Assembly (NCBI GenBank): GCA_014361455.1
Contig: JACIVP010000005.1
Location: 1-64,000 of the forward strand
Reading direction: 5' to 3'
Source: Candidatus Methanosuratincola sp.
GTDB lineage: Archaea > Thermoproteota > Methanomethylicia > Methanomethylicales > Methanomethylicaceae
Length of the DNA stretch: 64,000 nucleotides
The notes beneath the pieces were generated by a model that saw only the letters and a program-made list of their open reading frames with translations, made no database searches and was not told the DNA's origin. The stretch's first letter is position 1. The number at the start of each line of letters is the position of its first letter. Both the position numbers and the translations under genes were made by a program. Positions 52,984 through 53,182 of this stretch are shown here, in pieces.

Positions 52984-53110
52984 TGGCGCCGAGGGGGGGA
53001 TTCGAACCCCCGAGACCCTTACGAGTCACAAGCTCTCGGGAAGAGCCCTAGCCTTCTCCAGGCTTAAGCCCTGCACAGGATTGCTCCCTACCAGGCTAGG
53101 ATACCTCGGC
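52984..53110 (-). tRNA. tRNA-Ser (anticodon GGA), CCA encoded, with one or two introns
   Basis: 127 nt on the minus strand. Acceptor GCCGAGG/CCTCGGC, discriminator G, encoded CCA; T-arm GGGGG-TTCGAAT-CCCCC. The class II variable arm is GACTC-GTAA-GGGTC, and the anticodon stem TAAGC/GCTTG closes loop CTGGAGA (anticodon 53057-53059) only after removing 21 nt at 53035-53055, the canonical 37/38 position. The D-arm to position 26 region carries about 17 surplus nt (around 53068-53084), best read as a second, noncanonical intron. Mature length would be about 89 nt. Confidence 0.82.
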
Positions 53111-53127: not shown

Positions 53128-53140
53128 ATGGGGGCGGATA
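53128..53140 (-). promoter_or_regulatory. TATA-like element of tRNA-Ser
   Basis: AAAAAAATATCC on the minus strand, about 25 nt upstream of the tRNA 5' end. Confidence 0.45.
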
Positions 53141-53182
53141 TTTTTTTGCTTTTTCCCCAATAACTACGTTTGGTTGCTTTAG

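Follow-up and report, generated by a model that had tools for sequence, protein, structure and literature searches.

The window, the whole 64,000-nt stretch of DNA analysed here, carried on its minus strand (53110 to 52984, 127 nt) the single-copy tRNA-Ser(GGA) gene of a Methanosuratincola-like archaeon (Methanomethylicia). Judging from the sequence, we put a probability of about 0.95 on this being a functional gene with two BHB-type introns, one of 17 nt at position 29/30 and one of 21 nt at 37/38, whose precursor would likely be cut by a heteromeric endonuclease and joined to an 89-nt tRNA.

The gene and its spliced form

The gene began with GCCGAGG and ended with CCUCGGC-G-CCA. Its anticodon is GGA, its long variable arm is GACUC/GGGUC, and a T-arm is present. 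Excision of 53055-53035 (21 nt) and 53080-53064 (17 nt) produced an 89-nt tRNA in which every stem was paired, namely a 7-bp acceptor stem, a 4-bp D-stem, the anticodon stem CAAGC/GCUUG and a 5-bp T-stem. ARAGORN found all the class II traits in the spliced sequence (GGA anticodon, long variable arm, G73 and cloverleaf). A good Ser cloverleaf was obtained at the locus only when both segments were removed. Thus the earlier note was correct in reading 52984-53110 as a serine tRNA on this strand, with GGA anticodon, G73, long variable arm and two introns.

In the order of transcription, the 5' exon (53081..53110, minus strand, as are all the parts that follow) spans positions 1-29, which comprise the acceptor 5' strand, the D-arm and C27 A28 A29 of the anticodon stem. 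It was assigned from the sequence, the spliced cloverleaf and its retention in relatives. The noncanonical 29/30 intron follows (53064..53080, 17 nt, UCCUGUGCAGGGCUUAA). The middle exon (53056..53063) covers positions 30-37 (G30 C31 C32 U33, the anticodon GGA and G37), and was defined by the sequence and the spliced cloverleaf, like the 3' exon. The canonical 37/38 intron (53035..53055, 21 nt, AAGGCUAGGGCUCUUCCCGAG) was placed by the spliced fold and by enumeration of excisions, and is absent in the G013 and G017 genes (L018 and L019). The 3' exon (52984..53034) covers positions 38-76, with the anticodon stem 3' strand, the variable arm, the T-arm, the acceptor 3' strand, G73 and an encoded CCA.

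An A-rich, TATA-like element (AGCAAAAAAATATCC, 53136..53150, minus strand) lies upstream of the tRNA. It is conserved in the genus, as seen in the upstream sequences of relatives, and is the probable promoter of the gene. The DNA flanking the gene could be aligned across the loci of the same genus, and these tRNA-Ser(GGA) genes were therefore taken as orthologous.

The unspliced locus was not recognized for what it is by automatic finders. ARAGORN called a tRNA-Gly(ccc) at 52984-53074. Since the acceptor and D-arm in this prediction came from the 29/30 intron and the middle exon, the call was rejected. With the Rfam tRNA model, the locus fell below the gathering threshold. Such miscalling and missing might be expected of a pseudogene or a decayed, unspliced copy, but all stems are intact once spliced, and the exons and BHB are conserved family-wide while the intron cores vary. 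Moreover, a search with GGA anticodon-arm patterns, with or without an intron, found no other match in the genome. A pseudogene is thus very improbable.

Several other tRNA genes in this genome were inspected. Those for Ser(UGA) and Ser(CGA) (L198 and L200), the remaining UCN serine tRNAs, contained only the canonical intron by manual reading, and were labelled Ala by ARAGORN. A second tRNA-Ser(GCU)-like gene (L203:112-201; G000:C1:107864-107950, minus strand) had a 3' end, CCCCCCCUCGGCGCCA, that matches that of tRNA-Ser(GGA), and a mismatched acceptor stem. It resembles a chimeric pseudogene or the scar of an integration event; the intact Ser(GCU) gene of the genome is L049. Three low-scoring tRNA genes (L206, L207 and L208, at G000:C68:124988, C123:24504 and C134:41445) had long or extra inserts, which are probably further noncanonical introns. 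Two of them were Leu-like with inserts in the D-arm.

Position of the second intron

The second intron was well supported by sequence comparison as lying at 29/30, in the anticodon stem. The placement was fixed by enumeration, two covariations and a gene with an empty site. The earlier note had placed this intron around positions 22-26 of the D-arm region (53068-53084), with ends left ambiguous by an AGGG repeat at both borders. The two placements differ in their products. Excision at 29/30 (product ...UAGGGAGCAAGC) kept all 4 bp of the D-stem and gave an anticodon stem of five Watson-Crick pairs. The D-arm excision (product ...UAGGGCUUAAGC) was also called tRNA-Ser(GGA) by ARAGORN, but it lost the 10-25 pair of the D-stem and created U27.G43.

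The BHB at 29/30 was complete. In its central helix, exon bases 24-27 (GAGC) pair with GCUU of the intron, giving 4 bp between two 3-nt bulges; the outer helix is formed by 20-23 and 31-34, and the inner helix by CCU and AGG. On the other hand, none of the five junctions possible within the AGGG repeat gave a BHB when checked by hand. With the true border elsewhere, the ambiguity from this repeat disappeared.

All excisions were enumerated in the 17 family genes that contain both introns, including that of the window. Excision at 29/30 was the best solution in all 17 of them for cloverleaf and BHB together, with a full 4-bp central helix. In the window, neighboring junctions would give an identical mature sequence, since the UUAA tail of the intron resembles exon bases 27-29 (CAA). 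The same mimicry makes the D-arm misplacement understandable. The choice of junction was settled by relatives with U or C as the last intron base, or with G at position 29; in these only 29/30 works.

Covariation was examined in 72 archaeal tRNA-Ser(GGA) genes, which were pattern matches with a downstream T-arm; the pattern had left exon base 25 and intron base -4 free. These two bases formed a Watson-Crick pair in 66 of the 72 genes (A:U in 34, C:G in 20 and G:C in 12), that is, with compensatory changes in the 29/30 BHB helix among relatives. In the pattern matches read as non-tRNA, they paired in just 3 of 16. Three of the six exceptional tRNA genes belonged to Bathyarchaeum, in which a different register may apply. 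Exon pair 29:41 also covaried (57 G:C, 11 A:U, 3 G.U and one mismatch).

The tRNA-Ser(GGA) gene of a sister-family genome (G022; L030/L213) reads GGGAGCAGGCCUGGAG; the exons are the same, the insert is missing, and a 37/38 intron comes next. GGGAGC, which the D-arm placement would assign to the intron, is exon in relatives and is present in this empty-site gene, and therefore cannot be intron. These results leave a D-arm intron highly improbable.

That only one intron is removed and the other insert is kept in the mature RNA is possible in principle, but a retained insert would disrupt the anticodon stem. Furthermore, family members differ in insert length (12 to 17 nt), yet the 3' GCUY of the insert is kept and pairs with exon 24-27. 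We consider such retention exceedingly improbable, and removal of both introns is the reading followed below.

Splicing of the two introns

The 21-nt intron at 53055-53035 is inserted just after G37, as proposed before, and its BHB is indeed relaxed, with a single mismatch, opposite U33, in the central 4-bp helix. Four genes (L018, L019, L076 and L185) contained the 29/30 intron without the 37/38 intron. The two introns are therefore independent of each other.

Bases 31-34 take part in the outer helix of the 29/30 BHB, and bases 32-35 in the central helix of the 37/38 BHB. Exon bases 32-34 are common to both, so the two structures cannot form simultaneously, and splicing must be sequential. 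In folding of the full precursor, the structure with the 29/30 BHB had an energy of -60.5 kcal/mol, within 0.2 of the minimum (-60.7), versus -51.5 kcal/mol with the 37/38 BHB. These calculated energies favor the 29/30 BHB and thus suggest that 29/30 is cut before 37/38.

The 37/38 intron (53035-53055) contains AGGCUAGG, which is complementary to CCUAGCCU in the D-arm (53093-53100). This complementarity, of 6-8 bp, is kept in L001-L010 and not in L012-L017. It is conceivable, though unlikely, that in Methanosuratincola and close kin the conserved GGCUAGG of the 37/38 intron pairs over 6-8 bases with CCUAGCC of the D-arm 5' strand, lengthens the outer helix at 29/30 and enforces the order of splicing. 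By this extension, one intron would scaffold the removal of the other.

The genome encodes two splicing endonuclease subunits, EndA alpha (L031) and beta (L032). L031 matched PDB 3p1z_B, the Aeropyrum pernix enzyme, with E=7e-48, and retained the catalytic His and the Lys aligned to K44. In L032, Pro occupies the position of the catalytic His of the aligned M. jannaschii enzyme. K44 is the key loop lysine. On sequence grounds, L031 and L032 are predicted to be a heteromeric (alpha-beta)2 endonuclease with the Crenarchaea-specific loop, in which alpha is catalytic and beta structural. Enzymes of this kind have been linked to cleavage of noncanonical introns (PMC4033280, PMC12397907).

In the proposed pathway, this endonuclease would cut the precursor at the 29/30 BHB first and at 37/38 afterwards, and the exons would be joined by the archaeal tRNA ligase. 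The product would be the 89-nt mature tRNA, which would be aminoacylated and decode UCC/UCU.

Distribution and relation to known introns

The 29/30 intron was present in all 19 tRNA-Ser(GGA) genes recovered from the family (the window and 18 relatives). That 18 relatives share both the insert and its site is more than chance. No tRNA-Ser(GGA) gene was recovered from three genomes of the family, all of them incomplete. The pattern search gave an empty 29/30 site or no match in the other sampled families of the class. A match in G023 was a chance match in protein-coding sequence rather than a tRNA. With its rejection, no sampled family of the class beyond that of the window showed the intron.

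Beyond the class, the 29/30 intron was found in tRNA-Ser(GGA) of Bathyarchaeia, many Nitrososphaeria-type genomes and Borrarchaeota, among pattern matches of which a large share overall were bacterial and non-tRNA. The Candidatus Borrarchaeota genes (L131 and L139) place this intron in Asgard-group archaea, outside Thermoproteota. Some genes apparently have three introns. In Bathyarchaeum and kin (L078, L085, L096 and L137) these are a D-loop insert with 29/30 and 37/38, and in Nitrososphaeria-type genomes (L073, L081, L082, L097 and L102) they are 29/30 and 37/38 with a T-loop insert.

The remark in the earlier note that multiple tRNA introns occur mainly in Thermoproteota fits the literature and the host genome, which belongs to that phylum (GTDB). 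Multi-intron genes of Thermoproteales, such as Pyrobaculum islandicum tRNA-Pro(UGG) (PMC4090602), likewise contain several short BHB introns, one at 37/38, and occur with a heteromeric endonuclease within one broad archaeal group. In contrast, the host here is a methanogenic member of Methanomethylicia, and the second intron is a fixed feature of one tRNA species throughout the family. Position 29/30 is listed as a known noncanonical intron site, and is the identical anticodon-stem position at which tRNA-Ala of Caldivirga maquilingensis is split (PMC4090602). The window, however, has a cis-spliced intron of tRNA-Ser(GGA) rather than a split gene.

According to PMC8450103, archaeal tRNAs have up to three introns that need ordered removal, and the Thaumarchaeota introns modelled in tRNAscan-SE 2.0 are likewise BHB introns at noncanonical sites. 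Its passages on these introns do not name tRNA-Ser(GGA) of Methanomethyliaceae, Bathyarchaeia or Borrarchaeota as having one at 29/30. A literature search on Verstraetearchaeota/Methanomethylicia returned no description of this case; subscription papers were mostly outside this search, and an earlier description is possible. What is new is the exact 29/30 placement and its wide recurrence in tRNA-Ser(GGA); the site itself and multi-intron archaeal tRNAs were already known.

The analysis corrects the position of the intron and supplies a tRNA-Ser(GGA) where ARAGORN calls tRNA-Gly and Rfam misses the gene. One site of one tRNA species recurs in distant archaeal classes, with compensatory changes. 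This recurrence provides a test set for deep ancestral inheritance versus repeated gain at preferred sites of noncanonical introns, and also for an enforced order of splicing.
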